Positions 21,171 through 36,198 of a stretch of 43,395 bases of DNA are shown here, one piece after another. The notes below the pieces were generated by a model. The model ran no database searches, had not been told where the DNA came from, and saw only the letters and a program-made list of their open reading frames with translations. The stretch is taken from IMG/VR virus record IMGVR_UViG_3300009081_000021, positions 1-43,395 of that record. The stretch is one strand, 5' to 3'. This DNA is from a virus. The position numbers and the translations under genes were made by a program. Numbering within the stretch: position 1 is the first letter of the stretch; every line of letters begins with the position of its first letter.

Positions 21171-21222
21171 CCGATTCCTTTCAAAAAAGAAAGAAGATGA
21201 CCTTTTAGTCATTCTCCTCTCC

Positions 21223-21250
21223 ATTATAGCATATGTTTAGAGCGCGACTA
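21223..21250 (-). promoter_or_regulatory. Promoter P4 of the TCGC-CATA-TATAAT class
   Basis: Minus strand: TAGTCG (21250-21245), a 16-nt spacer CGCTCTAAACATATGC, then TATAAT (21228-21223). CATA starts at spacer position 10, as in four other copies. The -10 is also a perfect extended type (TATGCTATAAT). It starts inside the metalloprotease end and serves the nuclease and RNA-polymerase-like genes. Confidence 0.8.
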
Positions 21251-21824
21251 TGTCTTTTATACGAAATATCATCCACTCTTTGAGAGCGAAACCAGCATCA
21301 TTATCTGCTATGTTCGCTGCTATTAAAGAAGTAAACATATCGCAAACATCTTCTGTCGGATCCTTTCCACTACCATCCTTTGTATGTTCTGGATGTTGAT
21401 GGTCTGGATAATTGATAGAAATATATCCAGTATATTTAGTAACTTTGTAACCCATATTGCGACAATTACCAGATGTCACAGGCTTTCCATTTATAGTTCT
21501 AATAACACTATGAGATAGAATTTCTGCTGGGTTCAATTCTTTAGGAGTATTAAGACAAATAAAATGCATCAGCTCATGGTACATTAGAAGTTGATCGACA
21601 CATCCGGTCTGAAGCTGAATCCTTTTTGGATCGAATTTATTAGTATAACCATAATAAGGACCAGCTAATTCTTCTTTCCCCTCTAATATAATTCCTGAAA
21701 ATAGCTTTTCTAAAATATCAGGACAATCTATATAAAGTAATAATTTAGCTTTTATATTTATAAAAGCCAAATCGATATTAAGCTTATCAGCTTCTGTAAA
21801 AACTCCTTCATACTTTATCTTCAT
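21237..21824 (-). CDS. Zincin-type metalloprotease
   Basis: 195 aa. 'YHELMHFIC' (His83-Glu84...His87) is the HExxH zinc motif, and 'DPTEDVCDMF' (Glu158...Asp162, ExxxD) fits the gluzincin third ligand about 70 residues later. No signal peptide or membrane segment, so it should act in the cytoplasm. It is the last gene of the replication operon, overlapping the SF2 helicase by 17 bp. Substrate unknown: a host repressor, a defence protein or a phage polyprotein are possibilities. AAAAGGAGAG ribosome site. Confidence 0.75.
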   Translation of the reverse strand: MKIKYEGVFTEADKLNIDLAFINIKAKLLLYIDCPDILEKLFSGIILEGKEELAGPYYGYTNKFDPKRIQLQTGCVDQLLMYHELMHFICLNTPKELNPAEILSHSVIRTINGKPVTSGNCRNMGYKVTKYTGYISINYPDHQHPEHTKDGSGKDPTEDVCDMFTSLIAANIADNDAGFALKEWMIFRIKDIVAL

Positions 21825-23004
21825 TGAACTCTCCTTTTAAGAATTTTTTTTCATTAAAATTCTTTTTATTATTCAAAGCCTCTTTTATAGCTTTATCAAT
21901 AAATGAATTTGAAGTTATAGTATAATAATATAGCTTTGTGTATGGCGTATTCAATCTATCAATACGTCCGCCTGCTTGTGTCATTATTCTATAAGAATAA
22001 TTTAAAGAATAGAAAATAATAACATTAGTAGTAATACAATTCCATCCCTCAGCCCCAGATAAATATTGAACAAGATAGGCCCAATATTCTCCATCGGGTA
22101 TCTTATCATGAACATGACCATTGTATTCTCGGAAGTCCAAATTTTTAATGTTTTTTAATCCGTTCTTTAATAAGTCTAATTCATAATTGAAATTGTAAAA
22201 TATAATAACTTTTCTATGTTTTTCTATTATGTTCTTTATAATAGAAAGTCTAGAGGGATCACTATTGACAACCTTTCTAGAAACAAAACAGAATTGAGAA
22301 ATGTCTTTTATTGGAAGTTTCTTATATGGATCCCATCTCTTTTTAAAAACCAGATTCAGTAAATCATTATCAAAAGATGATAGACTTTCTATATAGATAC
22401 TTTCAGTTGGCTTTATGTAATCCATGTTTACTAAAATATATCTTTTCAATTTCTCAAGCTTAGAAGTTTCAATATAATGATCTATCTTTGGAAATTTTGT
22501 AAAATTATTATATACCACATGACTTCGAATAAACTCTGTCCTATTTTTATAAAACCCATTAGCAATAAAGACTGGTACATAATCAAGCCAAGTATCGCCA
22601 GGGGTTGCGCTTAATAGAATCCAAGCATTCTTTTTGGTTATTTTCAAAAAACTTTTAACCCATGAGCCAGACCCAATTACTCTTTGTTCATCAAATATAA
22701 AGAAAGCGTTTTCTACTTCAGTATACTTCTTTATATTATTCCAAGAATCTACAATAACTTCAACATGTTTTATGCTTGCTGTTTTATCCCTAGATAATCC
22801 AAACATAGCACACTCGCGTTCCCAATCGAGCGTGTCACGTTTTGCTGCGGTTGTTATTATATATAAATCTTTCCCTAATTCTTTTTTATAATAATACATA
22901 ATCGCAGTTCTAGTTTTACCAGAACCGACTCCACCACATAAGATGGAGCCGGTCTTTAACTGGTCTACCGCATCTTCCTGATATTTAGAAAGGAGGTTCT
23001 TCAT
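21808..23004 (-). CDS. SF2 DNA helicase (SNF2-like)
   Basis: 398 aa. Motif I 'LCGGVGSGKTRTA' (about residues 22-34), motif II 'FFIFDEQRVIGSGSW' (DEQR in place of DEAH), motif III 'ILLSATPGDTW' and C-terminal 'VQYLSGAEGWNCITT' with motif VI 'QAGGRIDRLNT'. This is the phage SNF2/SF2 translocase type used in replication or recombination. The N-terminus overlaps the SSB-like gene end by 20 bp with no clear ribosome site, so coupled translation is likely. It lies between SSB and metalloprotease. Confidence 0.88.
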   Translation of the reverse strand: MKNLLSKYQEDAVDQLKTGSILCGGVGSGKTRTAIMYYYKKELGKDLYIITTAAKRDTLDWERECAMFGLSRDKTASIKHVEVIVDSWNNIKKYTEVENAFFIFDEQRVIGSGSWVKSFLKITKKNAWILLSATPGDTWLDYVPVFIANGFYKNRTEFIRSHVVYNNFTKFPKIDHYIETSKLEKLKRYILVNMDYIKPTESIYIESLSSFDNDLLNLVFKKRWDPYKKLPIKDISQFCFVSRKVVNSDPSRLSIIKNIIEKHRKVIIFYNFNYELDLLKNGLKNIKNLDFREYNGHVHDKIPDGEYWAYLVQYLSGAEGWNCITTNVIIFYSLNYSYRIMTQAGGRIDRLNTPYTKLYYYTITSNSFIDKAIKEALNNKKNFNEKKFLKGEFNEDKV

Positions 23005-23488
23005 CTATAGAAGACCGCGCACTATCGGGAACATCACGATATTTCTTTGCAAACTCGTCTTCAATTAGAGTCACATAAATAGATTTAAGATAGGCCTTAA
23101 CTCCGGATTTTTCATTCATTTCCCAATTATATGGCCTAATAATTAAATCTACATTTTCAATTTCAGCCCAGTCTAGAATACTGATATTCTCTTCTTCTAG
23201 AACAGATTTTCCAGTACCAGAAATAACCACAACTTTTGGAGGAAAATTAGTATATTTAACAGCTACTTGAAGATAGGCTTGACGAGCATCTTCTGGATCC
23301 TTTGGAGTTAAATATCTTACATTCCATCCATCAGCTTCTAGCTCACTTGCAATGACTTCATCTAAAAGAACACTGAAGTTCCTATAGCCATCTGGATTGT
23401 ATCTTCCTGGTTTTCCACTAAAGTTTCGGAAAACGATTTTTGCATTCTCGATGCTAATAATTCTAGTAATTTCTTTATTCTTTTTCAC
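22985..23488 (-). CDS. Single-stranded DNA-binding-like protein
   Basis: 167 aa from GTG 23488, which has AAGGAGAAAAGAAA before it. A basic N-terminus (KKNKEITRIISIE) and a beta-rich body ('AKIVFRNFSGKPGRYNPDG', 'RNFSVLLDE', 'WNVRYLTPKDP') resemble the phage OB-fold replication proteins encoded next to polymerases. The C-terminus 'SSIDEEPPF' is an acidic tail ending in Pro-Pro-Phe, like the partner-docking tail DDDIPF of bacterial SSB. It follows the polymerase by 14 bp and overlaps the helicase. Role is inference from tail and position. Confidence 0.7.
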   Translation of the reverse strand: MKKNKEITRIISIENAKIVFRNFSGKPGRYNPDGYRNFSVLLDEVIASELEADGWNVRYLTPKDPEDARQAYLQVAVKYTNFPPKVVVISGTGKSVLEEENISILDWAEIENVDLIIRPYNWEMNEKSGVKAYLKSIYVTLIEDEFAKKYRDVPDSARSSIDEEPPF

Positions 23489-23502
23489 TTTCTTTTCTCC
23501 TT

Positions 23503-26500
23503 TCAAAGTCTGAATTCCTCGAAATTGACATATTCATTAATATGATCAATAGCCTTATCTGCTAATTCTCTATAATAATCCTGATCGATATTATCCTCCA
23601 TTCCTAAGGCTCTAACTGTTTCGGATTCCATCCAACGATATCCTTTAGTTCCTGAAACAGCATGATATTTTCCATCTTTTTCTCTTAATAGAATTCCTCC
23701 ACCAGTTTTAACAGGAACAAAAGAACCACTCTTCCCAATGAATATATAATTTGGTTTCTCATCATTACTATCCATATCAAGATAAAGAGCTGTTGTGACA
23801 GATTTGACTTCGCACAGATCAGCAAATTCAATTGGCTCTTTACTAAAAAGAGTTTTGAAAATATATGGATGCTGAAATTCTGCTCCCACGGCAATCCATT
23901 TACCAGATATATCTTTTGCTATGTAGACAGAATCATTTACAAGAAGAAATTTCTCATAGGTTGTTTCATGCTCAAATGTATACCCGTATTTTTTTCCAAA
24001 ATTGATAACAAAGTCAATTATCTCTTTTGTTGGGTTTGGGATCTTAATAGAATCTGTTTTAATATGAACAACTTGATAACCCTCTTCTTGCACCGCAATC
24101 TTTAAATCGATCATAAATAAGGAGCCTCTTTTTGCAACTATATTATCAACATTGCGAGGATCCCTAAATCTATTATCGAAAGAAGCAGATGTCAAACCAT
24201 AAACAATATTAATAATTATTTTCAATGCATATGCCAAATCAGCAGCATCTTCTGGAGAATTCAGATACTTTTCAAGTAATCCATTAAAACCTTTTCTTGC
24301 TTTGCTGAAGTCTTTATGCTTAATAGCAAGACGGACGTCGATAAGCTCCCGATATTTATCTGTATATTCCCCAAATAAATTAAGCAAAGATATAGAGCTC
24401 GGGTGCATAGATGCCACATCCAAAAGTGCAACGTTCTTGTAAAACCCACTTTCTGCATAGACGTACCCTCCTTCTCCAGTTTCCTCTCTTTGATAAAAGC
24501 TTTTTCCAGAGTCATAAGTATATCCTGGAAACATCTCACTAAGATCTGTATAGACGAACTTATCTTGAGGATGCTTGTCATTGCCAAATATAATTTTTGC
24601 AGTGTGCATTTGAGTTGTATCATTCACAGTCAAACCGCTAAGATCAGCAAGAATTTGACGAGCAACGAAATCTTGTTTACGATAATTAAAAACTGCTTCA
24701 GTACTAACAACATCATTATCGCAATAATCAATAACTGCTGGCCATTTATCTTCTGATACTTCCTTGTCAAAGGGGATTCCTAACTCATTATGATGGATGC
24801 CCAGCTCCAATTGAAACTTCTTCAAGCTCTGCTTAACTGATGAAAAGTCATAGACATCAGCATAAGATATATTATAAGCCTCATTAAAGAATGCTTTTTT
24901 ACGGTCTAGAATAATATCCGAACTCAACTTATATATCTCAGAATTACTATATCCAAGATATCTTGCATAAAGCATATGATTGTCATATCGACGACAATTA
25001 AAGCCTATTAATTTAAATTTTAATAGCTCTTCAATATCTTGGGGCGGGGGATTAATCATATGAATACATTTCTTATCTTCGCCTTCGTATTTCCAGCAAA
25101 CAAGAAATAGATTAGGAAATACCTCGACATCGAAAAAGACAACTCTATCATCTAAATAATTATTCTGGTTAACACTCGGCTCTTCTGAACTGAAATGCAT
25201 TTTGCTAACCAATTTAAGACAATAATCGGCATTGTTACTGCTTCTCATTGCAAATGTTAAAACCTTGTTCCGCATATCTCGGACATCATATGCTAGATCA
25301 GATTTATAAGCTTCCTCAAGTATAGTATAAATAAAGTCGATGCTTGGCTTTGTATATGGATGAATCTCTTTATTTAAGTTTCTTTGTATAAGCTCTCTAA
25401 GTCCTTTTTCACTTTTAACGGTTTCGAAATTTATCATTTTCGTTTTTTCTTTCTTAAGTGGTAAACCTGTAGAAATAGATGCTATAGGTATATTATTGCA
25501 TTTGGACAGTTTCCTTCTTAAAGAAGCCCCTCCACTAAAGATCTTAACTTCTATACCTTCTGCATAAATATTACTAAGCTTTCTAACATCCCCATCGTAA
25601 ATGTAATGAAGATGCAGACCCGCTTGGCTTTTACTATATTCTACATAAGTAGGAGGCCATTTAGTAGCTGCTTCCAAATTTAACTCAGAAGATTTGTTTC
25701 CCTCTTCATCTTTAATGTCAAAATCTATGACAATATGATCACCAGGAAGCTGGACATAATGAACTTTTGATGTGTCCAAATCTTTAAGAGTGGTTTGGAC
25801 GTCTTTCCACTTATCAGTAGGGATGCCTGATTCACCTGCATATTGTGCTGGGCAATCGGCTGCGTTCTCCTCAAAAATAGAAGGTACTTCTTCCAAAACT
25901 ATCCAACTAGAATTGACTTCTGGAATGGCTTTTTCGCTAACGGTAAACTTTTCCATCTTTAAATCAGAATAATAATTCCTAACTAATTTACCATCTAGCC
26001 TCTTCATCTCAGAAAAATTGTTAAAATAATTCTTCAACTCATCTCTAAACTTATATTTAGGAAGTTTATTAGCTATGGTTGCGTCATCACAATATTCTTT
26101 ATACAGAGTATAAGCTTGAGCTAAAGATACGCCACCCTGTTCGAGAAAAATATAATAGTAGTTTTCGACATAGTTGAAGAAAACATCAGTCTCAAATATC
26201 ATTCCCAAAGGTCTATAAGTAGCATAATAATTCTTCCCCATGGATCTATAGACTTTAAGACACTTCGAGGCTATAGCACCTAACTCAAAATCAATTCGCG
26301 ACATTAAGGAAAAATATTTAACAGTCGGCAACTTCTTTCCAGATGGTTTAACATCAATAAGTCTTCGAATTATTCCAGATTTTGCGTCCCCAATTTTAAC
26401 TGGTTTGTTTGTGGCAAGGAAGAGAAAACAATTAGCTCGAGCAGTATAGCTCGGCTTGTATTTCTCATTCATCACCATCTCTTCGTGAGATATGATTGAG

Positions 26501-27231
26501 TTGAGTTTTGTATTGTCTTCTATTCTAGAAAGATCACCATCATGCTGGAGAGCGACCAAAGGATTCGATCGGAAAACCTCAGTAGAAAAAGTATTGCTAG
26601 AACTAGTAAGAGCTTTAGCCTCAAAGGTCGTATAATATCCAGCAAACAACTTTTGAACTATATTTAGGAATGTGGACTTACCACTACCGCCCTCGCCATA
26701 TAGCACTATGAACTTCTGAATATCCTTTGCCTCGCCAGCAACGATAGACCCGAGAGCCCATTCTAGTTTAGTTCTCTCCTCAGGAGAATATAAAGTACTC
26801 ATCAATTGATCATAAGCATCACACTTATCATCGCTCAAAGAATACGGCAAACGTCTACTAACATAATCACTTTTCTTTACTTCTGTATTCTGAAAAGTTA
26901 AATGCTCATCTAGTTGGTGGGCGTTATCTGATATTCTTGATAAATAGTTTCTGTATTGCGTCCAAGCATTTGTACTGAAATCGCTCATAAATTTTACATG
27001 AATAACTTCATTCTTCTTCTCAATGAGTTTATTTCTATAATTCATTAAGTCAGCATCCATCAAACGTTGGACATCATATTCATCGGTTGACCATAACCCT
27101 TTCTCTTCATCCCAAATGGCATAAAAACTTTTAGCTCGAACCATAAGGTCCTTAGATCTTGTTACTTTGAAATCGGGATATATTTCTATAATCCCTTTAT
27201 TCGATCTTTCTTTTATTTGATAAAAATCCAC
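23503..27231 (-). CDS. Helicase - primase - family B DNA polymerase in one polypeptide
   Basis: 1,242 aa from GTG 27231 (AAAGGAGG 8 bases upstream). Residues about 130-330 form an SF3/D5-like helicase: Walker A 'GEGGSGKST' (179-187), 'LVALQHDGD' (225-233), sensor 'FLFLATNKP' (269-277), then 'GIIRRLIDVKPSGK'. Residues about 490-595 look like an archaeo-eukaryotic primase: 'VIDFDI' (Asp503, Asp505), 'SQAGLHLHY' (His540, His542), 'IEVKIFSGG'. Residues 697-850 are a 3'-5' exonuclease: 'FFDVEVFPN' (Asp701, Glu703), 'GFNCRRYDNHML', 'YCDNDVVSTEAVF'. Polymerase motifs A 'LLDVASMHPSSI' (Asp938), B 'KIIINIVYG' (1004-1012) and C 'HIKTDS' (Asp1060) follow. Motif C keeps one of the two family-B aspartates. 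Confidence 0.88.
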   Translation of the reverse strand: MDFYQIKERSNKGIIEIYPDFKVTRSKDLMVRAKSFYAIWDEEKGLWSTDEYDVQRLMDADLMNYRNKLIEKKNEVIHVKFMSDFSTNAWTQYRNYLSRISDNAHQLDEHLTFQNTEVKKSDYVSRRLPYSLSDDKCDAYDQLMSTLYSPEERTKLEWALGSIVAGEAKDIQKFIVLYGEGGSGKSTFLNIVQKLFAGYYTTFEAKALTSSSNTFSTEVFRSNPLVALQHDGDLSRIEDNTKLNSIISHEEMVMNEKYKPSYTARANCFLFLATNKPVKIGDAKSGIIRRLIDVKPSGKKLPTVKYFSLMSRIDFELGAIASKCLKVYRSMGKNYYATYRPLGMIFETDVFFNYVENYYYIFLEQGGVSLAQAYTLYKEYCDDATIANKLPKYKFRDELKNYFNNFSEMKRLDGKLVRNYYSDLKMEKFTVSEKAIPEVNSSWIVLEEVPSIFEENAADCPAQYAGESGIPTDKWKDVQTTLKDLDTSKVHYVQLPGDHIVIDFDIKDEEGNKSSELNLEAATKWPPTYVEYSKSQAGLHLHYIYDGDVRKLSNIYAEGIEVKIFSGGASLRRKLSKCNNIPIASISTGLPLKKEKTKMINFETVKSEKGLRELIQRNLNKEIHPYTKPSIDFIYTILEEAYKSDLAYDVRDMRNKVLTFAMRSSNNADYCLKLVSKMHFSSEEPSVNQNNYLDDRVVFFDVEVFPNLFLVCWKYEGEDKKCIHMINPPPQDIEELLKFKLIGFNCRRYDNHMLYARYLGYSNSEIYKLSSDIILDRKKAFFNEAYNISYADVYDFSSVKQSLKKFQLELGIHHNELGIPFDKEVSEDKWPAVIDYCDNDVVSTEAVFNYRKQDFVARQILADLSGLTVNDTTQMHTAKIIFGNDKHPQDKFVYTDLSEMFPGYTYDSGKSFYQREETGEGGYVYAESGFYKNVALLDVASMHPSSISLLNLFGEYTDKYRELIDVRLAIKHKDFSKARKGFNGLLEKYLNSPEDAADLAYALKIIINIVYGLTSASFDNRFRDPRNVDNIVAKRGSLFMIDLKIAVQEEGYQVVHIKTDSIKIPNPTKEIIDFVINFGKKYGYTFEHETTYEKFLLVNDSVYIAKDISGKWIAVGAEFQHPYIFKTLFSKEPIEFADLCEVKSVTTALYLDMDSNDEKPNYIFIGKSGSFVPVKTGGGILLREKDGKYHAVSGTKGYRWMESETVRALGMEDNIDQDYYRELADKAIDHINEYVNFEEFRL

Positions 27232-27252
27232 CGAAAAAGCCTCCTTTCAATG

Positions 27253-27572
27253 CTTTTGTTACGGAGTTACACCTTTTTGTAAAGAAAAACTCTATTTATA
27301 TTTTTTTCTTTTTTAAAGTTCTTAGGGTTCAAAAACGTAACTCCGTATACTTTTTGCCTTTTTTCACCATTTTTTTGAAATTTTACGCCTAAAAAGTCAA
27401 AAAAATAATGAAAAAACAGTATACACCTTTTTTTCAAGAACGTAACAAGAACGTAACTCCGTATACTTTTTTGTCAAAAAATGACACTTTTTCGAGAAAA
27501 AATTTTCATTTTTTTCTCGATTTTTTACAAAAAAAGTATACACTCTTCGAAGTCCGTAACAAAAGTGTATAC
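27253..27572. repeat. Iteron-like cluster, candidate origin
   Basis: GTATAC occurs at 27345, 27419, 27461, 27536 and 27567. GTAAC, in either orientation, occurs at 27258, 27266, 27337, 27442, 27453 and 27556. Larger units read GTATACGGAGTTAC (minus) at about 27350 and 27466, with GTTACGGAGTTAC at 27258. At 27435 an 11-bp unit (CAAGAACGTAA) is in tandem. A perfect 10-bp hairpin (27493-27502 with 27510-27519, CGAGAAAAAA) sits inside. Iterons, A/T tracts and a hairpin beside the replication protein fit an origin; some boxes could equally be operators of the operon promoter. Confidence 0.65.
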
Positions 27573-27585
27573 TATTTTGTAAACA

Positions 27586-27733
27586 TTTTCAGAGGGTAGA
27601 AAAGGGGATTCATCGTTTACAGTGTAAGCTGATTATCTTCTATATAAATTTTTTTGGGATTTTTGCAAATCACCCCAATAGAACAATCAATCTGCTCGAT
27701 ATTGGCACACGATATATTTCTACCCTCTGAAAA
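27586..27733. repeat. 17-bp perfect inverted repeat around 114 bases
   Basis: Arms 27586-27602 (TTTTCAGAGGGTAGAAA) and 27717-27733 are exact complements. Inside are small dyads: TTACAGTGTAA at about 27617-27627 (operator-like) and GATTT...AAATC around 27658-27671. On the minus strand it follows the last accessory gene. Could be a structured RNA, a transcript end or part of the origin. Confidence 0.8.
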
Positions 27734-27775
27734 CGGCAGTTTTGAGAACTCTGCCAAACTCCTTAGGCTGGTTTC

Positions 27776-28499: not shown

Positions 28500-28500
28500 C

Positions 28501-29224: not shown

Positions 29225-29253
29225 TCCATTTCTCCTTTCAAGAGTCTATAAAA

Positions 29254-29763: not shown

Positions 29764-30355
29764 TATTGGTTTTCCTCTTTCTCTTTGGTTTTTGCTCTGC
29801 CTCCTCCTCAGACAGGCCAAGAACCAAGGTCGAATATTTGCCGTGGACACGAATTACTTCGTAGTCCGCTTCGAGATCGTTGTTACGAATATAAACGACG
29901 TCTGGGTCTTCCGATAGTTCACCGAAGTGCAAACCTTCGCGCGGCCCGATAAGATCTGACGGGCTTGCGATTAACTCATCCTCTAGGGTATAAGCGTTAT
30001 CACCTTCGTAATACATGATTTCGAACTGATCTCGATTTGTTAGATTTACCCACTCGTTATGGCTAATAATCTCGAACAAAGGAACGCTTAAATCCTCAGT
30101 CTCCTGGCCAATCCCAAGATATGGCGCTACAAGCTCGTTCAGGTTAGCTTTTGGCTTGGTCATCCTAGTATAATCCACAGGAGCTTCTGGGTTTGAAGGC
30201 TTATATTCCTCTACCCGTTTCTCGAATTCTTCCATGATATCTTCCGAGATCTGCTTTTCTTGGAATTTATAGATTAGCATATCTGCGAGAAGATATCCAA
30301 CAACACCTCCGCAAACACCGCTTGCTGCAACGATTACTACTTTCCTAACGTTCAT
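29750..30355 (-). CDS. Membrane-anchored conserved phage protein
   Basis: 201 aa. One N-terminal membrane helix with Gly-rich face (about residues 8-28, 'VVIVAASGVCGGVVGYLLADML'-like), then a soluble domain with 'IISHNEWVNLTNRDQFEIMYY' and 'GDNAYTLEDELIASPSDLIG', 'DPDVVYIRNNDLEADYEVIRV', and a basic tail (QKPKRKRKTNNGTE). The same architecture recurs in gut phages beside the 170-aa NDDNRAEDG protein and DUF6353-like proteins. Function unknown. Ribosome site GAAAGGAGGG, part of the recurring long leader. Confidence 0.78.
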   Translation of the reverse strand: MNVRKVVIVAASGVCGGVVGYLLADMLIYKFQEKQISEDIMEEFEKRVEEYKPSNPEAPVDYTRMTKPKANLNELVAPYLGIGQETEDLSVPLFEIISHNEWVNLTNRDQFEIMYYEGDNAYTLEDELIASPSDLIGPREGLHFGELSEDPDVVYIRNNDLEADYEVIRVHGKYSTLVLGLSEEEAEQKPKRKRKTNNGTE

Positions 30356-30470
30356 AATTTAACCCTCCTTTCAAGGGCTTTTCCATAATATAACAATTGT
30401 CGTACGTATAGTTATCTGGATGTTTGCATTCTTCTAGGACTTGATCTTTCCCGAAGATTACTGCGTCCAG

Positions 30471-31361
30471 TCAAATTATATCCCAAATTACACCGTCAAC
30501 ATTAAAGTCGAGACGAACATACTCGCTATAACCATTGACAAAGTCACGATGCAAACCGTTATCTGGATTTTCAAGATCGAAGGAGATATAGTTATCGCCA
30601 TGGTCCTTGACCCATCCAACAACTGAGCCAGCTCTACTACGAGGAATCCCCAAACAATCATAGATCTCATTCAAAAATACATGTCCCTGGGTTTGTAGAA
30701 GCTGGTTAGCATATGTCTGCTGAGATTGCAGGAAATGAAGATTCATCTCGTTATTCCGTTTGAATTGCAAAGAACTCTCGTCGAAATAACGGGCATAGAT
30801 ACTTTCCTCTTCCCAAGGAGGAACGCCATTATCTGCTTCCGGTTCAGCGACTACATCTTTCTTTTTCTTTTTTCCTTCGACTAGCTGATACTTCCGTTCC
30901 TCTCCACCAAATCGGAAATATCGATCTGCTGCCTCGTCAATGGAGTCTACAACACGACTTCGATACTTTTTGAAGCCCTCATCAAGCAGTTTATAGGCAG
31001 CAATAAGAGCCATATTTCGCCTTGAGAGGATTTCATGAGACGCTGCGATTGAGACCAAGGACAGCACGCCAAGACCAATAATCGGCGCATAAAGCTTTCC
31101 AGCATTAAGAATATAATTAACTTTAGCTAGACGCTTATCGTAATTATAATTCTCTTCAGAATATTCAATTCTTTCATCATCATAATAGAGCTCGATGGTT
31201 TCATTAACATCTTCATAGATTTCTTTTATATTCTGAAATTTATATGCTGCTCTATGAATTCCGACCGCCGTCCCAACCATTCCAGTAATCCCGAAACCGA
31301 TTAAGATTTCTGGAGCATATTTTTTAGCAATCAAACTTGCCCTACTCAGCTGGAGTTTCAT
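30471..31361 (-). CDS. DUF6353-like two-helix membrane protein, copy A
   Basis: 296 aa. Two membrane segments: about residues 13-33 ('APEILIGFGITGMVGTAVGI') and 85-108 ('YAPIIGLGVLSLVSIAASHEI'), separated by an acidic loop. 'LSRRNMALIAAYKLLDEGFKKYR' follows, then a cytoplasmic-type tail. The C-terminal module 'EIYDCLGIPRSRAGSVVGW' with 'DHGDNYISFDL' matches a piece of two other proteins here. Family known from many gut phages, function unknown. Overlaps the upstream 74-aa gene by 20 bp. Confidence 0.8.
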   Translation of the reverse strand: MKLQLSRASLIAKKYAPEILIGFGITGMVGTAVGIHRAAYKFQNIKEIYEDVNETIELYYDDERIEYSEENYNYDKRLAKVNYILNAGKLYAPIIGLGVLSLVSIAASHEILSRRNMALIAAYKLLDEGFKKYRSRVVDSIDEAADRYFRFGGEERKYQLVEGKKKKKDVVAEPEADNGVPPWEEESIYARYFDESSLQFKRNNEMNLHFLQSQQTYANQLLQTQGHVFLNEIYDCLGIPRSRAGSVVGWVKDHGDNYISFDLENPDNGLHRDFVNGYSEYVRLDFNVDGVIWDII

Positions 31362-31566
31362 CTTTTCGAGTCTCCTTTTTCTTAGCTTTATTGAAGGTTT
31401 GGAATGCGTCGGTATAGGTATCTTCCATAGCTTTCGCTACCAGATTTATAAATTCGACATCACCATATACCAAGTTATCCAAATATTGCATTGCTTTAAC
31501 AACACTGCGCTGGCCCGTCTGAGCCAATATAAAAGCTTTAGCTTTATCTTTCCAATTAATACCCAT
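31342..31566 (-). CDS. Small helical protein, 74 aa
   Basis: ATG 31566 is chosen (MGINWKDKAKAFILAQTGQR) because AGGAGA lies 8 bases upstream; two ATGs further upstream are too close or lack a site. Charged helical protein with 'KAMQYLDNLVYGDVEFINL' in the middle and a Lys/Glu-rich tail (KAKKKETRKDETPAE). Not recognised. Overlaps DUF6353-like copy A, suggesting translational coupling to that membrane protein. Confidence 0.7.
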   Translation of the reverse strand: MGINWKDKAKAFILAQTGQRSVVKAMQYLDNLVYGDVEFINLVAKAMEDTYTDAFQTFNKAKKKETRKDETPAE

Positions 31567-31577
31567 TTTCATTTCTC

Positions 31578-31820
31578 CTAGCAAAATACATAACAGATTA
31601 AAATAACACCGAAAGAGACTCCTGCTGCGATCAACCACTTAACGATCGAGCAAGCCAGCCCCTTACCGATAGGACGCATTGGGACAGTTTGGTAACCACG
31701 TCCTGCTGGACCGTAAATCTTGGCGTGGTCACCTTTCCCCATTTCAACTTTCAAACCTGCTTTTTCAGCCTTTTTAATAAGGTTTCGTCCATCTAAGTCT
31801 TGAGAACTAATCCTCGGCAT
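31578..31820 (-). CDS. HicA-like protein with C-terminal membrane helix
   Basis: 80 aa from ATG 31820 (MPRISSQDLDGRNLIKKAEK). 'GRNLIKKAEKAGLKVEMGKGDHAKIYGP' spans the HicA/YcfA double-stranded-RNA-binding-like fold, with the conserved His in GDH. 'QTVPMRPIGKGLACSIVKWLIAAGV' gives the usual last strand and helix. Instead of ending there it continues as a hydrophobic helix (SFGVILICYVFC). HicA proteins are mRNA-cleaving toxins; no HicB-like antitoxin follows. The membrane tail argues for a different or tethered role. Overlaps a 55-aa acidic gene. Confidence 0.65.
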   Translation of the reverse strand: MPRISSQDLDGRNLIKKAEKAGLKVEMGKGDHAKIYGPAGRGYQTVPMRPIGKGLACSIVKWLIAAGVSFGVILICYVFC

Positions 31821-31974
31821 AGATAACCCCCGTTTCGAAGTCTTCTTCTGATCGTTTAAGTTGGACGACGAGCTGCCAATCAAATATAAGTTTTTCAACC
31901 ACCTCAACAAAGTCTTCTATCGCCGGAATGCTCGTATCATCATCGAAAACTATTGTTAGAACTTGATTACCCAT
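31807..31974 (-). CDS. 55-aa acidic protein upstream of the HicA-like gene
   Basis: ATG 31974 after AGGAGAAATCG, stop TAG at 31807. Sequence MGNQVLTIVFDDDTSIPAIE... is strongly acidic with one beta-like start and a helix (DFVEVVEKLIFDW), ending ETGVIYAED. It overlaps the HicA-like gene by 14 bp. Small acidic gene directly before a toxin-like gene is the usual antitoxin layout, but the sequence does not resemble HicB. Function unknown. Confidence 0.65.
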   Translation of the reverse strand: MGNQVLTIVFDDDTSIPAIEDFVEVVEKLIFDWQLVVQLKRSEEDFETGVIYAED

Positions 31975-31983
31975 CGATTTCTC

Positions 31984-32574
31984 CTATTCAATAACTAGAG
32001 GTTTAGGCATCTCCAAAATATAACCATCTCGTACTCGCTTTACGCTCGAGCGGGATAGATTATCCCATCCGTACTTATTATCTGCCCACTCCCCGCTGAG
32101 CCCGACTAAATCGTAGAAGTCTGCGACTGTGGCGACCCCATAGTCCTCTACTAAGTCCACAAGATTACTCAGAACTTCTTCAGCATCGCTTCGACTTTCC
32201 AGCACAACGTCCTCAAAACGATGCCTGTTTTTTCCGATTTCTAACCTTCGACTATCAGGTTCTCGGTCGCGATCTTTATAATAGCTGTTGTAGGAAACAT
32301 ACGAACGTCCTCTATCGCGACGGACATTGCTTCTTGGCTCACCGTAAAGGAGCATTTCTATACCATTACTAATCATCTCAGTGATGGTGTTTTTGCCAGC
32401 TGGGATAAGTACATCCCAAAGGATATAATTCCCAACACTCTTTGTGTTCTCGCCAAATATGCGCATTAGCAAAGGCTTTTTCCGTTCAACGATATTGCCT
32501 TTGATAACTTTAAGTTTTCTTTGGGGCTCCTCATCAGAGCCCCGTTTTGACCGTCTAGAATTGCTTGGGTACAA
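31984..32574 (-). CDS. Conserved gut-phage protein with YDLVGL module
   Basis: 196 aa from TTG 32574, which has AGGAGG seven bases upstream; an ATG at 32616 would lie inside the previous gene without a site. The N-terminal part is basic and disordered (SRRSKRGSDEEPQRKL). 'NYILWDVLIPAGKNTITEMI' and 'NGIEMLLYGEP' follow, then an Arg/Ser/Tyr-rich linker. The C-terminal module is 'VADFYDLVGLSGEWADNKYGW' split as YDLVGL...GW, ending 'RVRDGYILEMPKP'. A widespread unnamed gut-phage family. Confidence 0.78.
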   Translation of the reverse strand: MYPSNSRRSKRGSDEEPQRKLKVIKGNIVERKKPLLMRIFGENTKSVGNYILWDVLIPAGKNTITEMISNGIEMLLYGEPRSNVRRDRGRSYVSYNSYYKDRDREPDSRRLEIGKNRHRFEDVVLESRSDAEEVLSNLVDLVEDYGVATVADFYDLVGLSGEWADNKYGWDNLSRSSVKRVRDGYILEMPKPLVIE

Positions 32575-32576
32575 AT

Positions 32577-32978
32577 TTATACCTCCTGACATCTGATTTC
32601 TGCATTTGGATACCATTTTACATGCGTGATAATATCGGCAAGCATGTGTATAGCTGTATGATAATCCGCCACAGTTGCTAGAAAAGCATTCTCAACATAG
32701 ATCTCAGGATTATCACAAATATGAAGGAGAGCCTCCATTAAGGCTTTTTCATATACTCCAATAGGTGTGGGAGTCTCCTTTGTCAATATCCCTTTAATCC
32801 CGGCGCAGTCATATATCTCCATGCAGAACTCTGGCAGATATATAACATACAACGTTACGCTGTATGGAAGATTACCCGTATCAATACTCATACGCAAAGA
32901 GATTTTGAACTTCCCCTTTCCAAAATCATCCTTCATGAGACCTTCTGTTTTTTTAAACATATCCATTGACATTTGCAA
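32577..32978 (-). CDS. Hypothetical protein, 133 aa (TTG start)
   Basis: TTG 32978 follows AAGGAGAACACG at ideal distance; ATG codons two and four codons later are alternatives. 'GNLPYSVTLYVIYLPEFCMEIYDCAGIKG' is a beta-rich middle, then helices ('EKALMEALLHICDNPEIYVENA'-like and 'HTAIHMLADIITHVKW'). Soluble and without a known motif. Overlaps the 86-aa gene upstream by 26 bp. The recurrent leader TTGAAAGGAGA is present here too. Confidence 0.7.
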   Translation of the reverse strand: MQMSMDMFKKTEGLMKDDFGKGKFKISLRMSIDTGNLPYSVTLYVIYLPEFCMEIYDCAGIKGILTKETPTPIGVYEKALMEALLHICDNPEIYVENAFLATVADYHTAIHMLADIITHVKWYPNAEIRCQEV

Positions 32979-33213
32979 CGTGTTCTCCTTTCAAGATTAT
33001 TCGTCCCTTCCGAGTAAAACCATTCATTGGCTCGATCCGCTTGAGCTGAATCTTTCCGAAATATGATTGGTATACGTATACTCGCTGGTGGGCTCCAAAA
33101 ACCCCTTCCCAACCAGATGGATACTCTAAATATATATCAATGTCGGTTTCAGGCTTAATACCGTTCTCGCTGAGATAGCTCAGTAGTGCCTCTTGCAGAT
33201 GATTTAGCCGCAT
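32953..33213 (-). CDS. Hypothetical protein, 86 aa
   Basis: MRLNHLQEALLSYLSENGIK start, then beta-rich 'DIDIYLEYPSGWEGVFGAHQ' and 'VYVYQSYFGKIQLKRIEP'. Ribosome site GGAGGTGATT before ATG 33213 is a near-perfect match to the 16S 3' end, so expression may be strong. Function unknown. Overlaps neighbours on both sides (59 bp with the 67-aa gene, 26 bp with the 133-aa gene), which is unusually dense packing. Confidence 0.7.
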   Translation of the reverse strand: MRLNHLQEALLSYLSENGIKPETDIDIYLEYPSGWEGVFGAHQRVYVYQSYFGKIQLKRIEPMNGFTRKGRIILKGEHVANVNGYV

Positions 33214-33358
33214 TAATCACCTCCATAACTTTCTTTATTTCTGCTGGCTTGTTGGTGAAATTTGATATATAATTATACATGGCTTCTTGAGTCATATCGT
33301 ACACCTTAGGTTCCAGTTTCCCAATTATCATCGTCACTCTTGAGTAGAATGATATCAT
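33155..33358 (-). CDS. Hypothetical protein, 67 aa
   Basis: ATG 33358 has AGGAGG six bases ahead inside the preceding zinc-ribbon gene; an internal ATG at 33331 is the alternative. MIIGKLEPKVYDMTQEAMYNY... is helical and polar, ending KSSARGTTELSQRERY. Overlaps the zinc-ribbon gene by 53 bp in another frame. Not recognised. Two genes share these bases, so codon choice here is constrained. Confidence 0.6.
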   Translation of the reverse strand: MISFYSRVTMIIGKLEPKVYDMTQEAMYNYISNFTNKPAEIKKVMEVINAAKSSARGTTELSQRERY

Positions 33359-33503
33359 TCATTTCCTCCTCTATATATTCTTGAAGTAGCCTTACAAAAG
33401 GATTAGATTGCTTGCATGTATGACAGATCCACTTGCCGTTTATCAAATCGTGATCTTCTCTAGAACCACAATGTGGACACCACGTCCATATAAGATTGTC
33501 CAT
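33306..33503 (-). CDS. Zinc-ribbon protein
   Basis: 65 aa from ATG 33503. 'WCPHCGSREDHDLINGKWICHTCK' (split: CPHC at 9-12, CHTC at 27-30) is a two-knuckle zinc ribbon, a fold used for nucleic-acid or protein contacts. The rest is helical and acidic (VRLLQEYIEEEMNDI). The start lacks a nearby ribosome site; AAAGGAGG is 37 bases upstream, separated by a terminator-type hairpin. A longer frame through the hairpin (start about 33563 or 33617) cannot be excluded. Confidence 0.65.
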   Translation of the reverse strand: MDNLIWTWCPHCGSREDHDLINGKWICHTCKQSNPFVRLLQEYIEEEMNDIILLKSDDDNWETGT

Positions 33504-33506
33504 TGA

Positions 33507-33536
33507 GAAAAATAAGAGTGCTAGATTAGCACTCTT
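33507..33536 (-). terminator. Terminator Tb, upstream of the zinc-ribbon gene
   Basis: AAGAGTGCTA, loop of three, TAGCACTCTT (33514-33536), followed on the minus strand by ATTTTTC. It ends the cassette of the 93-aa membrane gene. The opposite strand also has a T-run, so it may work both ways. Near-identical to Ta at 35775. Confidence 0.85.
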
Positions 33537-33546
33537 TTTACCTCCT

Positions 33547-33828
33547 TTATGAAATATCAACAACATCAATCGTCGAAAAGAACTTATTTTCAACTGCCGA
33601 TTTTGCGGCTCCTGCAATTATGGAAGTAATAACAGCTACTGCAATAGTCATTCCAAGCGTCTGTATCAACCAAATCATTTGATCTTTTAATTCATTTGAT
33701 TCGTTTGGTTCAAGAAGCTTCGGCGTAACTTTTTTTACTAGCGCCATCACTCCAAAATAAGCAACAAAGCCCACAATATTTTCGGTAGTTGCTAACGCAA
33801 CTTTCTTAACAATCATATTTGTGTTCAT
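33547..33828 (-). CDS. Two-helix membrane protein, 93 aa
   Basis: MNTNMIVKKVALATTENIVG start, first helix about residues 16-33 ('ENIVGFVAYFGVMALVKKV'), a polar loop (PKLLEPNESNELKDQ), second helix about 52-73 ('MIWLIQTLGMTIAVAVITSI'), then 'AAKSAVENKFFSTIDVVDIS'. Sole gene of the cassette between promoter P3 and terminator Tb. Ribosome site AAAAGGAGAT. No family recognised; membrane placement is clear. Confidence 0.78.
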   Translation of the reverse strand: MNTNMIVKKVALATTENIVGFVAYFGVMALVKKVTPKLLEPNESNELKDQMIWLIQTLGMTIAVAVITSIIAGAAKSAVENKFFSTIDVVDIS

Positions 33829-33858
33829 CTTTATCTCCTTTTCATAGGTTAGTATTCT

Positions 33859-33886
33859 ATTATAGCCTATGATTTTGCCGCGAAAA
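33859..33886 (-). promoter_or_regulatory. Promoter P3 of the TCGC-CATA-TATAAT class
   Basis: TTTTCG (33886-33881), spacer CGGCAAAATCATAGGC (16 nt), TATAAT (33864-33859), then AGAA. Begins at the last codons of the upstream 63-aa gene. Drives the 93-aa membrane gene. Confidence 0.82.
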
Positions 33887-34078
33887 CTAATACCTGCGGC
33901 TGAGAATAAGAGTAAACTTCATCTTCTTAGCTAGTAGTATCTCTCCTAATGCAACAATAGCAACGGTCGTCAGAACAGTCTTTCCCAATGGAACTGGAGT
34001 TGACGCTAACGACTTTCCTGCTGCTTTCACCTTAGTTGTAAAATCTTCAAGACCGGTAATACGAATATTAAATGGCAT
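33887..34078 (-). CDS. Small membrane protein, 63 aa
   Basis: ATG 34078 (MPFNIRITGLEDFTTKVK), with AGGAG nine bases upstream; a GTG one codon before is an alternative. One hydrophobic segment (about residues 30-52, 'VLTTVAIVALGEILLA') and a basic tail (KKMKFTLILSRRY). Overlaps the stop of the signal-peptide gene by one base (TGATG). The last codons abut promoter P3. Function unknown. Confidence 0.7.
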   Translation of the reverse strand: MPFNIRITGLEDFTTKVKAAGKSLASTPVPLGKTVLTTVAIVALGEILLAKKMKFTLILSRRY

Positions 34079-34332
34079 CACTTTATACTCCTAAATCCTT
34101 CTCCGCATACGATTAATACACGTTGCTGATCTAATCGTTGAACAGACATTGAATCAGCTTTGCAATTAACTTCCAAAGCCTGGTTCTCATAGAGTTGATA
34201 GAATCGCCAGGGAATTGATACAGTTGCAGCCTCTGCTGATATTACCCATACGCTCAGAATAAGCATAACGATAAAAATTACGAAAAGAATAGGAATACAA
34301 ATATTTAATGTCCTCATCAAATTGTCATACAT
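34078..34332 (-). CDS. Small exported protein with signal peptide
   Basis: 84 aa. 'IPILFVIFIVMLILSVWVISAEAA' (positions 13-36, seen as one hydrophobic run ending in AEA-A) looks like a cleavable signal peptide or membrane anchor. The mature part (about 48 aa, 'VSIPWRFYQLYENQALEVNC') has two cysteines (CKAD, VCGEGF). An envelope-facing product; possible roles include superinfection exclusion, but nothing specific is shown. First gene after terminator Tc. AAAAGGAGA ribosome site. Confidence 0.7.
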   Translation of the reverse strand: MYDNLMRTLNICIPILFVIFIVMLILSVWVISAEAATVSIPWRFYQLYENQALEVNCKADSMSVQRLDQQRVLIVCGEGFRSIK

Positions 34333-34349
34333 TTCATTTTCTCCTTTTA

Positions 34350-34382
34350 AGAAAAATAAGGTGCTATATTTCTATAGCACCT
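34350..34382 (-). terminator. Terminator Tc after the 57-aa membrane gene
   Basis: AGGTGCTATA, loop of four, TATAGCACCT (34359-34382) followed by TATTTTTC on the minus strand. 10 bp after the stop of the 57-aa gene. Same outline as Ta and Tb. Confidence 0.88.
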
Positions 34383-34391
34383 CTTCGCCAT

Positions 34392-34565
34392 CTACTCTTC
34401 AGAAGCGGGTTGATCGTCCTCGATCACGTCGACCAGATCTTCATTGTCGTTCATATTGCTCAGTACCATGGCAGCAGCTCCAATAGCTACCAGGGCACCA
34501 ACAGCAACACCAGCGACTTTCAAGACTTTCGGGTCCTTAACAGTGGTCATCAGTTTCTCAAACAT
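34392..34565 (-). CDS. 57-aa membrane protein in a P2-Tc cassette
   Basis: ATG 34565 after AAAAGGAGAAAAAA, stop TAG 34392. MFEKLMTTVKDPKVLKV, then a Gly/Ala-rich helix (about residues 17-36, 'AGVAVGALVAIGAAAMVL'), then an acidic tail (MNDNEDLVDVIEDDQPASEE). Single gene flanked by promoter P2 and terminator Tc, a self-contained expression cassette. No plus-strand gene there is convincing. Function unknown. Confidence 0.8.
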   Translation of the reverse strand: MFEKLMTTVKDPKVLKVAGVAVGALVAIGAAAMVLSNMNDNEDLVDVIEDDQPASEE

Positions 34566-34598
34566 TTTTTTCTCCTTTTAAGAATATAGTTGGTTTCT

Positions 34599-34626
34599 AT
34601 TATACGATATGATTTTGCCGCGAACT
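34599..34626 (-). promoter_or_regulatory. Promoter P2 of the TCGC-CATA-TATAAT class
   Basis: AGTTCG (34626-34621), spacer CGGCAAAATCATATCG (16 nt), TATAAT (34604-34599), then AGAA. Lies immediately after the DUF6353-like copy B stop and drives the 57-aa membrane gene. Confidence 0.82.
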
Positions 34627-35394
34627 CTATAAGTCCTTCGGGCCATTCTTATACTCAATGACAACGCATGGCTGCTTTTTGTTTGATATCTCGGCTATCT
34701 TAGCGCTATAATATAGCTCTAGTAGCCCGTTATTGGCCTCCCAACCTACCTTTTTGCCCATTTCGACCGGCTCAAGACCAATAAGATCATACCAATCATT
34801 CAGTGTTTGATAGTATTCCCCAAACAATGATGCGTTATAATCATTAACATTTTTACGAATGCTTTCCCAATCAGTTTTGAAATATCGGCCTGAGAGGGAG
34901 TCATAAAATAGGCAGTCACCAAAACCAGTAATAATAATCTGATCTTCTTTAACTGGATTCTTATCCAATTTATCTTGAGCAATCTCTCCTCGGATTTTCT
35001 CGTCCTTACCATCTCCTAAGAGGGTCCTCACCTTCTCTTGATAATCCTTCAAACTTGCCTCGCTTAAAGCATACAGGCCTAGCAAAGCAGCATTACGCTG
35101 AAGACTAATCTTGTTCGAGGAAACGACACAGACAATTGTTAAAGCGCCAGACGCTAATGGTGGTAAATATAGCGTCCAGGTCATTTTGCCTATATCTGTC
35201 CCTTTTAATGGCGGTAGAAACGCCTCAAATCGCTTCTTATTTTCCTCATCGATCATGCGTACAGCTTTTATTGTGGGCTTTATCGTCAAGAGAGCCGTCG
35301 TTACAACTCCGACCGCACCAGAAAAGGTCAATATAGTTGGTGAGTTCTTTATGACGCCTAGCTTGATCATCCTTAGTGATCTTTTAATATTCAT
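34627..35394 (-). CDS. DUF6353-like two-helix membrane protein, copy B
   Basis: 255 aa. Membrane segments at about residues 18-37 ('SPTILTFSGAVGVVTTALLT') and 77-93 ('ASGALTIVCVVSSNKI'). 'LQRNAALLGLYALSEASLKDYQ' parallels the RRNMALIAAYKLLDEGFKKY of copy A at the same place. C-terminal module 'LNDWYDLIGLEPVEMGKKVGW' (YDLIGL...GW) then 'LLELYYSAKI' and 'CVVIEYKNGPKDL'. Paralogue of the 296-aa protein at 30471 by layout. GGAAGGAGAA ribosome site. Confidence 0.78.
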   Translation of the reverse strand: MNIKRSLRMIKLGVIKNSPTILTFSGAVGVVTTALLTIKPTIKAVRMIDEENKKRFEAFLPPLKGTDIGKMTWTLYLPPLASGALTIVCVVSSNKISLQRNAALLGLYALSEASLKDYQEKVRTLLGDGKDEKIRGEIAQDKLDKNPVKEDQIIITGFGDCLFYDSLSGRYFKTDWESIRKNVNDYNASLFGEYYQTLNDWYDLIGLEPVEMGKKVGWEANNGLLELYYSAKIAEISNKKQPCVVIEYKNGPKDL

Positions 35395-35511
35395 TTATTC
35401 TCCTTCCAAGAATTTAAAGATTACTTCCAATACAAGTAATCCCCATACTATGATAATAGGAATAACAATTAATCCAAGACAGCAGGCGAGTATCATCTGT
35501 AGAAATGTCAT
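35395..35511 (-). CDS. 38-aa single-helix membrane peptide
   Basis: ATG 35511 preceded by GGGAGG six bases upstream; stop TAA directly before the next ATG. MTFLQMILACCLGLIVIPII... is one long hydrophobic helix with a short acidic tail (FKFLEGE). The strong ribosome site and tight fit between neighbours support it as a real gene. Its stop region provides the ribosome site of DUF6353-like copy B. Confidence 0.68.
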   Translation of the reverse strand: MTFLQMILACCLGLIVIPIIIVWGLLVLEVIFKFLEGE

Positions 35512-35513
35512 AT

Positions 35514-35717
35514 TTAACCTCCCTTCTTTCCGAATCCGACCAAAAAGGCGAATCCTATAAATATACCACCAACTGCAAATAAAAGAAAACCAGGCAATCG
35601 ATGAATATTCATAGCGACTTCATAGCCATAGGTTATTGCGAAGATACCTATGGTTGCCAAGCAGAGCATAACAAAGATCTTGAGAACTGCATTAACAATC
35701 TTACTAAGTGTGTTCAT
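35514..35717 (-). CDS. Two-helix membrane protein, 67 aa
   Basis: ATG 35717 (MNTLSKIVNAVLKIFVML) with TTGAAAGGAGAAAAA ahead. Helices about residues 12-31 and 42-60 ('LLFAVGGIFIGFAFLVGFG'), ending KKGG. First gene after terminator Ta, followed within 2 bp by the 38-aa peptide. Not recognised; could form a complex with the following membrane proteins (inference from linkage). Confidence 0.75.
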   Translation of the reverse strand: MNTLSKIVNAVLKIFVMLCLATIGIFAITYGYEVAMNIHRLPGFLLFAVGGIFIGFAFLVGFGKKGG

Positions 35718-35766
35718 TTTTTCTCCTTTCAAGAATATATTTTGGTTCCCCAGAGTTTACCCCCGG

Positions 35767-35797
35767 GGAAAAATAAGAGTGCTAAGTTAGCACTCTT
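35767..35797 (-). terminator. Terminator Ta, about 40 bases after promoter P1
   Basis: AAGAGTGCTAA, one base, TTAGCACTCTT (35775-35797), then ATTTTTCC on the minus strand. There is no full gene between P1 and this hairpin, only AGGAGG followed by GTG CTA ACT TAG, the frame entering the stem. Confidence 0.88.
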
Positions 35798-35834
35798 TAT
35801 CCTCCTATTGTTTTAAAATAGGGTTAGTATTTCT

Positions 35835-35862
35835 ATTATATCATATGTTTTTCACGCGAAAA
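35835..35862 (-). promoter_or_regulatory. Promoter P1 of the TCGC-CATA-TATAAT class
   Basis: TTTTCG (35862-35857), spacer CGTGAAAAACATATGA (16 nt), TATAAT (35840-35835), then AGAAA. Its upstream box overlaps the T-run of the terminator at 35859. Extended -10 (TATGATATAAT). Confidence 0.82.
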
Positions 35863-35887
35863 AAAGAGAAGCCATGTTTCCATGACT
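35859..35887 (-). terminator. Terminator after the 85-aa gene
   Basis: AGTCATG, GAAA loop, CATGGCT (35870-35887), then TCTCTTTTTTT on the minus strand. It closes the P5 cassette. AAGGAGGAGTC-ATG sits at the stem, opening a 15-codon frame that runs through it and ends at promoter P1. Confidence 0.82.
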
Positions 35888-35898
35888 CCTCCTTCGGA

Positions 35899-36156
35899 TC
35901 AAATCTTTCTCCAAAACGTTCCGATTCTCGACGTTATTACGTTTAGGTGTTCGTGATTTAGTACCATCCCCGTAACGAATATCTGCCCAATTATTGGCAG
36001 AATAATATTCCACTCTATATGAGACTCTTTACTTTTAGCTTCATATAAAGTTTTCAGATTATTCGCCATTATTGAGTATTCTTCATCACTTGGATGAGAC
36101 TCTCTCATGACACCTAAAAGTCTTTCGATCTCTATATCGATAGTTTTGGGTTTCAT
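35899..36156 (-). CDS. Small membrane-associated protein, 85 aa
   Basis: MKPKTIDIEIERLLGVMRES, then 'SDEEYSIMANNLKTLYEAKS', then a hydrophobic segment (about residues 49-66, 'WNIILPIIGQIFVTGMVL') and 'NHEHLNVITSRIGTFWRKI'. This helix-membrane-amphipathic layout is common among small gut-phage proteins without assigned function. Single gene between P5 and a terminator. GAAAGGAGAAAATT ribosome site. Confidence 0.75.
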   Translation of the reverse strand: MKPKTIDIEIERLLGVMRESHPSDEEYSIMANNLKTLYEAKSKESHIEWNIILPIIGQIFVTGMVLNHEHLNVITSRIGTFWRKI

Positions 36157-36170
36157 AATTTTCTCCTTTC

Positions 36171-36198
36171 ATTATATGCTATGTATATAATGCGAGGA
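36171..36198 (-). promoter_or_regulatory. Promoter P5 of the TCGC-CATA-TATAAT class
   Basis: TCCTCG (36198-36193), spacer CATTATATACATAGCA (16 nt), TATAAT (36176-36171), then GAAAGG. Most divergent copy in the spacer but with CATA at the same place. Directly after the holin stop; drives the 85-aa gene with a very short leader. Confidence 0.75.

Follow-up and report, generated by a model that had tools for sequence, protein, structure and literature searches.

The virus record IMGVR_UViG_3300009081_000021 of IMG/VR (43,395 nucleotides; the window, meaning here the whole stretch of DNA that was analysed) carries five copies of a short element, TCGC-N8-CATA-N3-TATAAT, and the question raised by this locus is which RNA polymerase (RNAP) reads them. 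Judging from comparative sequence evidence, the five sites probably serve as promoters for the single-subunit two-barrel RNAP that the phage itself encodes at 17676-20348. This reading follows from the directionality of the element, its invariant spacing, the absence of a -35 hexamer, the tight association with the RNAP in phages that infect Actinobacteria or Firmicutes, the placement in gaps on the coding strand, and a copy about 0.9 kb before the RNAP gene itself. The original prediction had proposed a phage-specific promoter class controlling the nuclease/RNAP operon as well as the accessory block, perhaps through the RNA-polymerase-like protein; that part is supported here by a motif which tracks the polymerase among phages of unrelated hosts, and the set is not private to this phage.

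Five sites of fixed geometry in the window

36171..36195, minus strand: candidate promoter 1, TCGCATTATATACATAGCATATAAT, then GAAAGGAGAAAATTATG; 27.1 bits
35835..35859, minus strand: candidate promoter 2, TCGCGTGAAAAACATATGATATAAT; 19.3 bits
34599..34623, minus strand: candidate promoter 3, TCGCGGCAAAATCATATCGTATAAT; 13.2 bits
33859..33883, minus strand: candidate promoter 4, TCGCGGCAAAATCATAGGCTATAAT; 17.6 bits
21223..21247, minus strand: candidate promoter 5, TCGCGCTCTAAACATATGCTATAAT; 13.0 bits; precedes the VRR-Nuc / exonuclease / RNAP operon

All five exact sites lie on the minus strand, which is the coding strand, and all are placed at or just past gene ends, as had been described. The pattern TCGCN{7,9}CATANNNTATAAT returned these five and nothing else from the window and had no match in any of 100 dinucleotide-preserving shuffles of it, which confirms the fixed geometry and answers the earlier concern that the motif might be equally common in shuffled sequence. 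The second base of the spacer is G in four of the five copies, again as described, and A in the fifth; it is a purine elsewhere too. With one mismatch allowed, CATANNNTATAAT occurs 15 times in the window against 10.2 expected, and because this is near chance level the information must be held by the whole element. The bit scores listed above (13.0-27.1) come from a position weight matrix (PWM) whose training left the window out, and by this matrix no further position of the window reaches 9 bits and the opposite strand has none.

The perfect TATAAT, the likeness of CATA-N3-TA to a SigK -10 and the TG found ahead of the hexamer at two of the window sites would all be expected of ordinary sigma-70 or extended -10 promoters, or of sporulation-sigma (SigE/SigK) promoters, working without any phage factor. 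We consider this highly improbable. A scan for TTGACA placed 16-18 bp before the -10 finds no sigma-70-like -35 hexamer at any of the five sites (0/5 at 9 of 12 bases), which bears out the statement that the upstream box is not TTGACA, and nothing upstream of TCGC is informative (65 sites). Sigma promoters tolerate spacings of 16-18, whereas the distance between TCGC and TATA(A/G)T is 15 in 54 of the 58 cases from the panel and in 43 from IMG/VR, the others being scattered, with no variant of plus or minus one base among the panel and IMG/VR cases. Moreover, the CATA box, on which the resemblance to sporulation promoters depends, drifts to CACA, CACG, CATG or CGCA beside an unchanged TCGC and TATAAT, conservation of the TCGC box and of the purine start extends across phyla, and the element is also present in phages of the non-sporulating Gordonia, Rhodococcus and Arthrobacter. 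Together with the replacement of TATAAT in one lineage (see below), these features go against the extended vegetative or sporulation-type -10 that had been suggested earlier.

Extent and distribution of the element

The full element spans 29 bp, TCGC(A/G)NNAWWACAYRNNNTATAAT(G/A)(A/G)RA, and is longer than first described, conservation extending 3-4 bases past TATAAT (purine, purine, R, A). The consensus of 428 distinct sites is TCGCA.aAAatACAta.ccTATAATGAaA. Searching beyond the window, as had been proposed, showed that the same element recurs in many other phages: those infecting Streptomyces, Arthrobacter, Gordonia, Rhodococcus and bacteria of saliva or gut have 5 to 16 copies per genome, placed ahead of accessory genes. 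In the Streptomyces phage HotFries, with 61% G+C, many gaps between accessory genes hold sites of the type TCGCA-N7-C-N3-N3-TATA(A/G)T-GAGACCCCTAC.

IMG/VR was scanned for the exact 14 fixed bases, and the contigs considered here, with up to six copies each, are a sample from among the matches listed. Outside the 14-base query the sites share R at position 5, A at position 12, an A/T-rich stretch over 8-11 and, past TATAAT, RR.A. Among the matches listed, contigs of at least 40 kb that had been picked up by the 14-base pattern alone encoded the RNAP in 20 of 23 cases when the flanks were of this extended type vs 2 of 14 when they were not (Fisher p 1.8e-5). By a feature score, which was set after the shared extra bases had been noticed and before most of the RNAP searches, the RNAP was present in 13 of the 13 such contigs scoring 6 and in 0 of the 9 scoring below 4. 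Contigs with a good site and no RNAP were mostly fragments, again among the matches listed; one of them, L016, has a site almost identical to that of the longer, RNAP-bearing L046.

In phage records, tblastn recovered the RNAP 250 times, from Arthrobacter, Gordonia, Streptomyces, Lactococcus (1706-like), Curtobacterium, Microbacterium, Rhodococcus and Faecalibacterium phages and from saliva contigs. Sites were counted with leave-one-out PWMs in eight RNAP-positive genomes, namely HotFries (7), Cheesy (8), Eddiemania (9), ReqiPepy6 (16), CapnMurica (10), DrGrey (12), contig89 (6) and the window (5), and were always on the coding strand, with 0 on the opposite one. The RNAP-negative phages phiC31, ReqiPine5, sk1 and FP_Mushu, which infect the same or related hosts, gave no site, their top scores being -8 to 4 bits. 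Over these four phages and the IMG/VR sample, the element is thus confined to phages encoding the RNAP, which also speaks against ordinary host promoters. The phage collection searched held no near DNA relative of the window, and a search by term of open-access articles on Arthrobacter, Gordonia, Microbacterium, Rhodococcus and Faecalibacterium phages did not find this motif.

The phage RNA polymerase

17676..20348, minus strand: two-barrel single-subunit RNA polymerase (PHROG 4291), 890 aa, with catalytic LSGADFDGD at residues 499-507
17333..17662, minus strand: small acidic protein (PHROG 4303), adjoining the RNAP gene on its 3' side in every panel phage

The protein at 17676-20348 is labelled 'RNA-dependent RNA polymerase' by PHROGs, and most actinophage (SEA-PHAGES) records call it a 'helix-turn-helix DNA-binding domain protein' (for example MH155869 gp56 and NC_070940 gp100). 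A sequence search of solved structures with the window protein matched no RNAP. An AlphaFold2 model (mean pLDDT 78, pTM 0.62) retrieved with Foldseek both QDE-1, a DNA/RNA-dependent RNAP (E 4.7e-10), and the P74-26 phage RNAP gp62 (E 1.7e-6), and the LSGADFDGD motif is invariant in 10 diverged and 40 closer relatives. On the modelled double-psi beta-barrel (DPBB) fold and the DxDGD loop, the protein is a two-barrel single-subunit RNAP distantly related to QDE-1 and YonO. Ahead of the catalytic part, helix-turn-helix (HTH)-like segments are found near residues 38-62, 76-105 (matching HTH_23 and Sigma70_r4) and 140-160, with a further one at the C-terminal 850-889; in the searches made, no other conserved core protein had recognisable HTH motifs. 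The PHROG 4303 protein (MLTT.DNP..PFTQF..WYAFD...), which occupies the gp76 position in 1706 and has no Pfam match, is a possible partner of the RNAP.

Divergent lineages

The Faecalibacterium phage FP_oengus and its relatives encode an RNAP ~43% identical to that of the window, and their element has changed to (A/G)CGCGAAAAATNCA-N5-CTTTATGGA, present in 15 copies on a single strand with the register unchanged. Most lineages, the window included, have a TANAAT hexamer with A at position 2; in the oengus lineage it is replaced by C/TTTTAT, so that A-11 is T in nearly all copies. One relative (L215) has a copy 902 bp ahead of the RNAP. In the Lactococcus phages P092 and 1706 (RNAP ~39-42% identical for P092) TCGC is gone and ACA...TATAATRRR is kept. 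The element and the polymerase thus appear to diverge in step, a pattern that shared ancestry by itself would also yield. The recognition segment of the second HTH motif, NESSVR in the others, is changed in the P092 RNAP, and the TCGC box is lost in P092 (L129) and 1706 (L220); this is a single contrast and a possible link between bases and residues.

These lineages bear on the proposal that the host RNAP with its vegetative sigma is redirected to the sites by a phage activator or sigma appropriator bound to TCGC/CATA, in the manner of MotA/AsiA. Such a factor might be sought among the further co-inherited core proteins of unknown function, and it would account for an upstream box sitting 15 bp before a TATAAT that is conserved in most copies. 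It is nevertheless unlikely, since sigma-70 needs the A-11 of the hexamer that the oengus lineage has lost, the spacing is invariant, starts are expected 1-6 nt past the hexamer (see below), and the phages that share the element have hosts ranging from Firmicutes to Streptomyces, with differing sigma factors and RNAPs. In addition, among the conserved core proteins searched it is the phage RNAP alone that has recognisable HTH motifs.

The putative promoter of the RNAP operon

20336..20905, minus strand: exonuclease (PHROG 3953), sharing the operon with the RNAP
20856..21224, minus strand: VRR-Nuc-type endonuclease, first gene downstream of candidate promoter 5
21183..21222, minus strand: terminator-like leader hairpin and T-run, GGAGAGGAGAATGACTAAAAGGTCATCTTCTTTCTTTTTT, immediately past candidate promoter 5; z -3.6
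35862..35895, minus strand: terminator-like hairpin whose T-run adjoins the TCGC of candidate promoter 2 (GAAGGAGGAGTCATGGAAACATGGCTTCTCTTTT); -20.6 kcal/mol

The copy at 21223-21247 has counterparts in most related phages at a near-constant distance of ~0.9 kb upstream of the RNAP gene. When the 1.8 kb upstream of 73 IMG/VR RNAP loci was examined, 57 had a site of at least 8 bits on the forward strand vs 2 on the reverse strand, and the best site was mostly 0.89-0.98 kb before the RNAP, ahead of the VRR-Nuc and exonuclease genes; a further strand tally at RNAP loci gave 69 on the same strand vs 1 on the opposite. This copy is mostly of the subtype starting with AGAAGGAG. In many of these operons, that of the window included, the leader folds into a hairpin from base 1-2 which is followed by a T-run (z <= -2 in 27 of 67 leaders and z >= 2 in none), and this hairpin also occurs in P092, 1706 and oengus. 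It was seen as well in L097, L135, L178, L206 and others, being kept across Firmicutes phages and weaker in many phages of high G+C.

In the window no copy of the element stands directly before the structural genes, and the RNAP-operon promoter is the final one of its class ahead of the terminase on the circular map. The succession of promoter and hairpin in front of the nuclease-exonuclease-RNAP operon may hypothetically form an attenuator, setting the level of the RNAP or gating transcription towards the structural genes. Two near-identical terminator hairpins on the minus strand, 35775-35797 and 33514-33536 (AAGAGTGCTAAC/T..AGCACTCTT and a T-run), lie 3' of promoter-driven units.

Predicted position of the transcript start

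At window position 36171 the TATAAT is followed by GAAAGGAGAAAATTATG, the Shine-Dalgarno (SD) sequence of the open reading frame 35899-36156, whose start codon is reached after a leader of 14 nt. A start on the first G at 36171 would keep this SD sequence and a start at +7 would cut it, which argues for initiation right after the hexamer. SD cores lie at most 6 nt from the hexamer at up to 32 sites, some of whose paired start codons may be spurious, and a tRNA-like gene call of oengus, with ambiguous anticodon, begins at the second base past the hexamer. As SD cores, leader hairpins and the tRNA call begin there, starts would be expected 1-6 nt past the hexamer and not at +7, and the original prediction, which looked for starts 6-8 bases downstream, was probably mis-set on this point. 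tRNA or tRNA-like sequences were seen directly 3' of the element in oengus (L128, 2909-3006), ReqiPepy6 (L130, 14174-14281) and P092 (L129, 19992 and 20380).

The same arrangement bears on whether the element is a promoter at all. Short repeats in the gene gaps of actinophages are known as stoperators or start-associated sequences (PMC7302621, PMC13313380), and the element could by analogy be an operator, stoperator or boundary site bound by a phage DNA-binding protein. This we find the least credible of the alternatives, because the orientation strictly follows the downstream gene, the TA-rich hexamer is joined to a purine start, and terminators stand ahead of the element with leaders or SD sequences immediately behind it.

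How the polymerase would use the element

If the five sites are promoters of the phage RNAP, the enzyme would contact two boxes, TCGC and CA(Y)R, probably by way of the tandem HTH motifs at its N terminus and perhaps aided by the PHROG 4303 protein, and would then melt the TATAAT block and initiate on a purine 1-2 bases past the hexamer. Most accessory genes would thereby have their own transcript, and the T-run of an upstream terminator can directly abut TCGC, as at 35862-35895.

Several observations weigh against this assignment. The RNAP, the primase-polymerase, the helicase, the exonuclease and the PHROG 4303 protein are always inherited together (RNAP in 250 records, full-length primase-polymerase in 252 and helicase in 252), and phages with the shared core yet without the RNAP, sought among the phage records, were not found, the same ~250 records being recovered; as a result co-occurrence does not point to the RNAP in preference to the others. 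Site bases and HTH residues of the RNAP covary only weakly (p 0.006-0.07 in most groups, with no control for phylogeny), and for the RNAP-operon promoter only a weak enrichment in the N-terminal HTH region was obtained. TATAAT is kept in most copies, which host sigma-70 might read too. Finally, the RNAP's own operon bears this promoter, so that a source of initial RNAP is required; the first molecules may derive from leaky host transcription, from read-through or from RNAP carried in the virion.

A more specific proposal can be put forward tentatively, as a possibility to be taken seriously: an RNAP bearing tandem N-terminal HTH motifs would read a ~29-bp promoter without sigma, and the promoter-into-terminator arrangement of its own operon would constitute a self-gated switch between accessory genes and nuclease, RNAP and structural genes, kept from Faecalibacterium and Lactococcus phages to Streptomyces phages.

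Comparison with known systems

The closest parallel is Thermus phage P23-45, in which an AT-rich motif serves gp96, the vRNAP fused to the tape measure, and a GC-rich motif the nvRNAP gp64 (PMC10770324). There too short conserved motifs before early phage genes are assigned to two-barrel single-subunit RNAPs of the phage, and the motif is present in RNAP-bearing relatives and missing in those without RNAP (PMC10770324). However, the assignment in P23-45 is supported by cappable-seq and ChIP-seq (PMC10770324) and here by comparative genomics only, and family, motif and host range differ, one motif family covering phages of both Firmicutes and Actinobacteria in the present case.

YonO of the Bacillus phage SPbeta is likewise an RNAP encoded by a phage, with two barrels in a single chain and DxDGD in its active site. 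It transcribes late genes, for which a start was mapped, and the sequence of its promoter was left by the authors for 'further investigation' (PMC5467207). It belongs to PHROG 8308, whereas the window protein belongs to PHROG 4291, and the match between the two is confined to the surroundings of the active site (hhalign E 0.035, probability 1.5%). In 425 kb of YonO loci a single weak match to the element was found, and neither these loci nor the SPbeta stretch were above chance.

The T4 middle promoters, which depend on MotA/AsiA, combine an activator box near -30 with a perfect -10, TATAAT, and have no -35. They resemble the element in this, but its start site, its invariant spacing and the loss of the -10 in one lineage speak against a host holoenzyme. 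T7-type promoters are similarly compact (~20-25 bp), directional and purine-rich at the start (TATA then GGGAGA in T7, TATAAT then GAGA here), although the window polymerase is of the DPBB class and unrelated to T7 RNAP. With lambda pR'-tR' the RNAP operon shares an early terminator behind the promoter and the position of the last promoter ahead of the structural genes; it differs in that the hairpin starts at leader base 1-2, and no antiterminator is known here.

Genome context

23503..27231, minus strand: DNA primase-polymerase (PHROG 4210), co-inherited with the RNAP in every case

An exact 123-bp terminal repeat (window 1-123 = 43273-43395) makes it probable that the contig represents a circular assembly, complete at ~43.3 kb, and in a simple end-to-end join the tape-measure gene continues across the joint as an open frame of more than 1500 codons. 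Terminase, portal, capsid protease and tape measure identify a phage of siphovirus type. An Rfam search of the window gave no match. Two paralogous DUF6353 / PHROG 2152 proteins (34627-35394 and 30471-31361) are encoded by every panel phage apart from the partial locus L217, and 31578-31910 has a weak match to HicA toxin / PHROG 353. A GenBank note in ReqiPepy6 describes 1706 gp75 as a structural protein, which is no more than a lead towards RNAP carried in the virion.

Significance

Two-barrel single-subunit RNAPs stand near the enzyme presumed to be ancestral to every cellular RNA polymerase, and how a start site is found without sigma is the question that they pose. For the element there is now a definite consensus, with natural instances in the hundreds and variants that diverge from it, and the enzyme to which it is tied is encoded by at least 250 sequenced phages. 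These include many culturable SEA-PHAGES isolates in which the RNAP is annotated merely as 'helix-turn-helix DNA-binding protein' or 'RNA-dependent RNA polymerase'. If the assignment is true, it would supply Gram-positive and actinobacterial laboratory hosts with a matched promoter and polymerase for expression, and the transcription programme of a large group of phages would have to be re-annotated.

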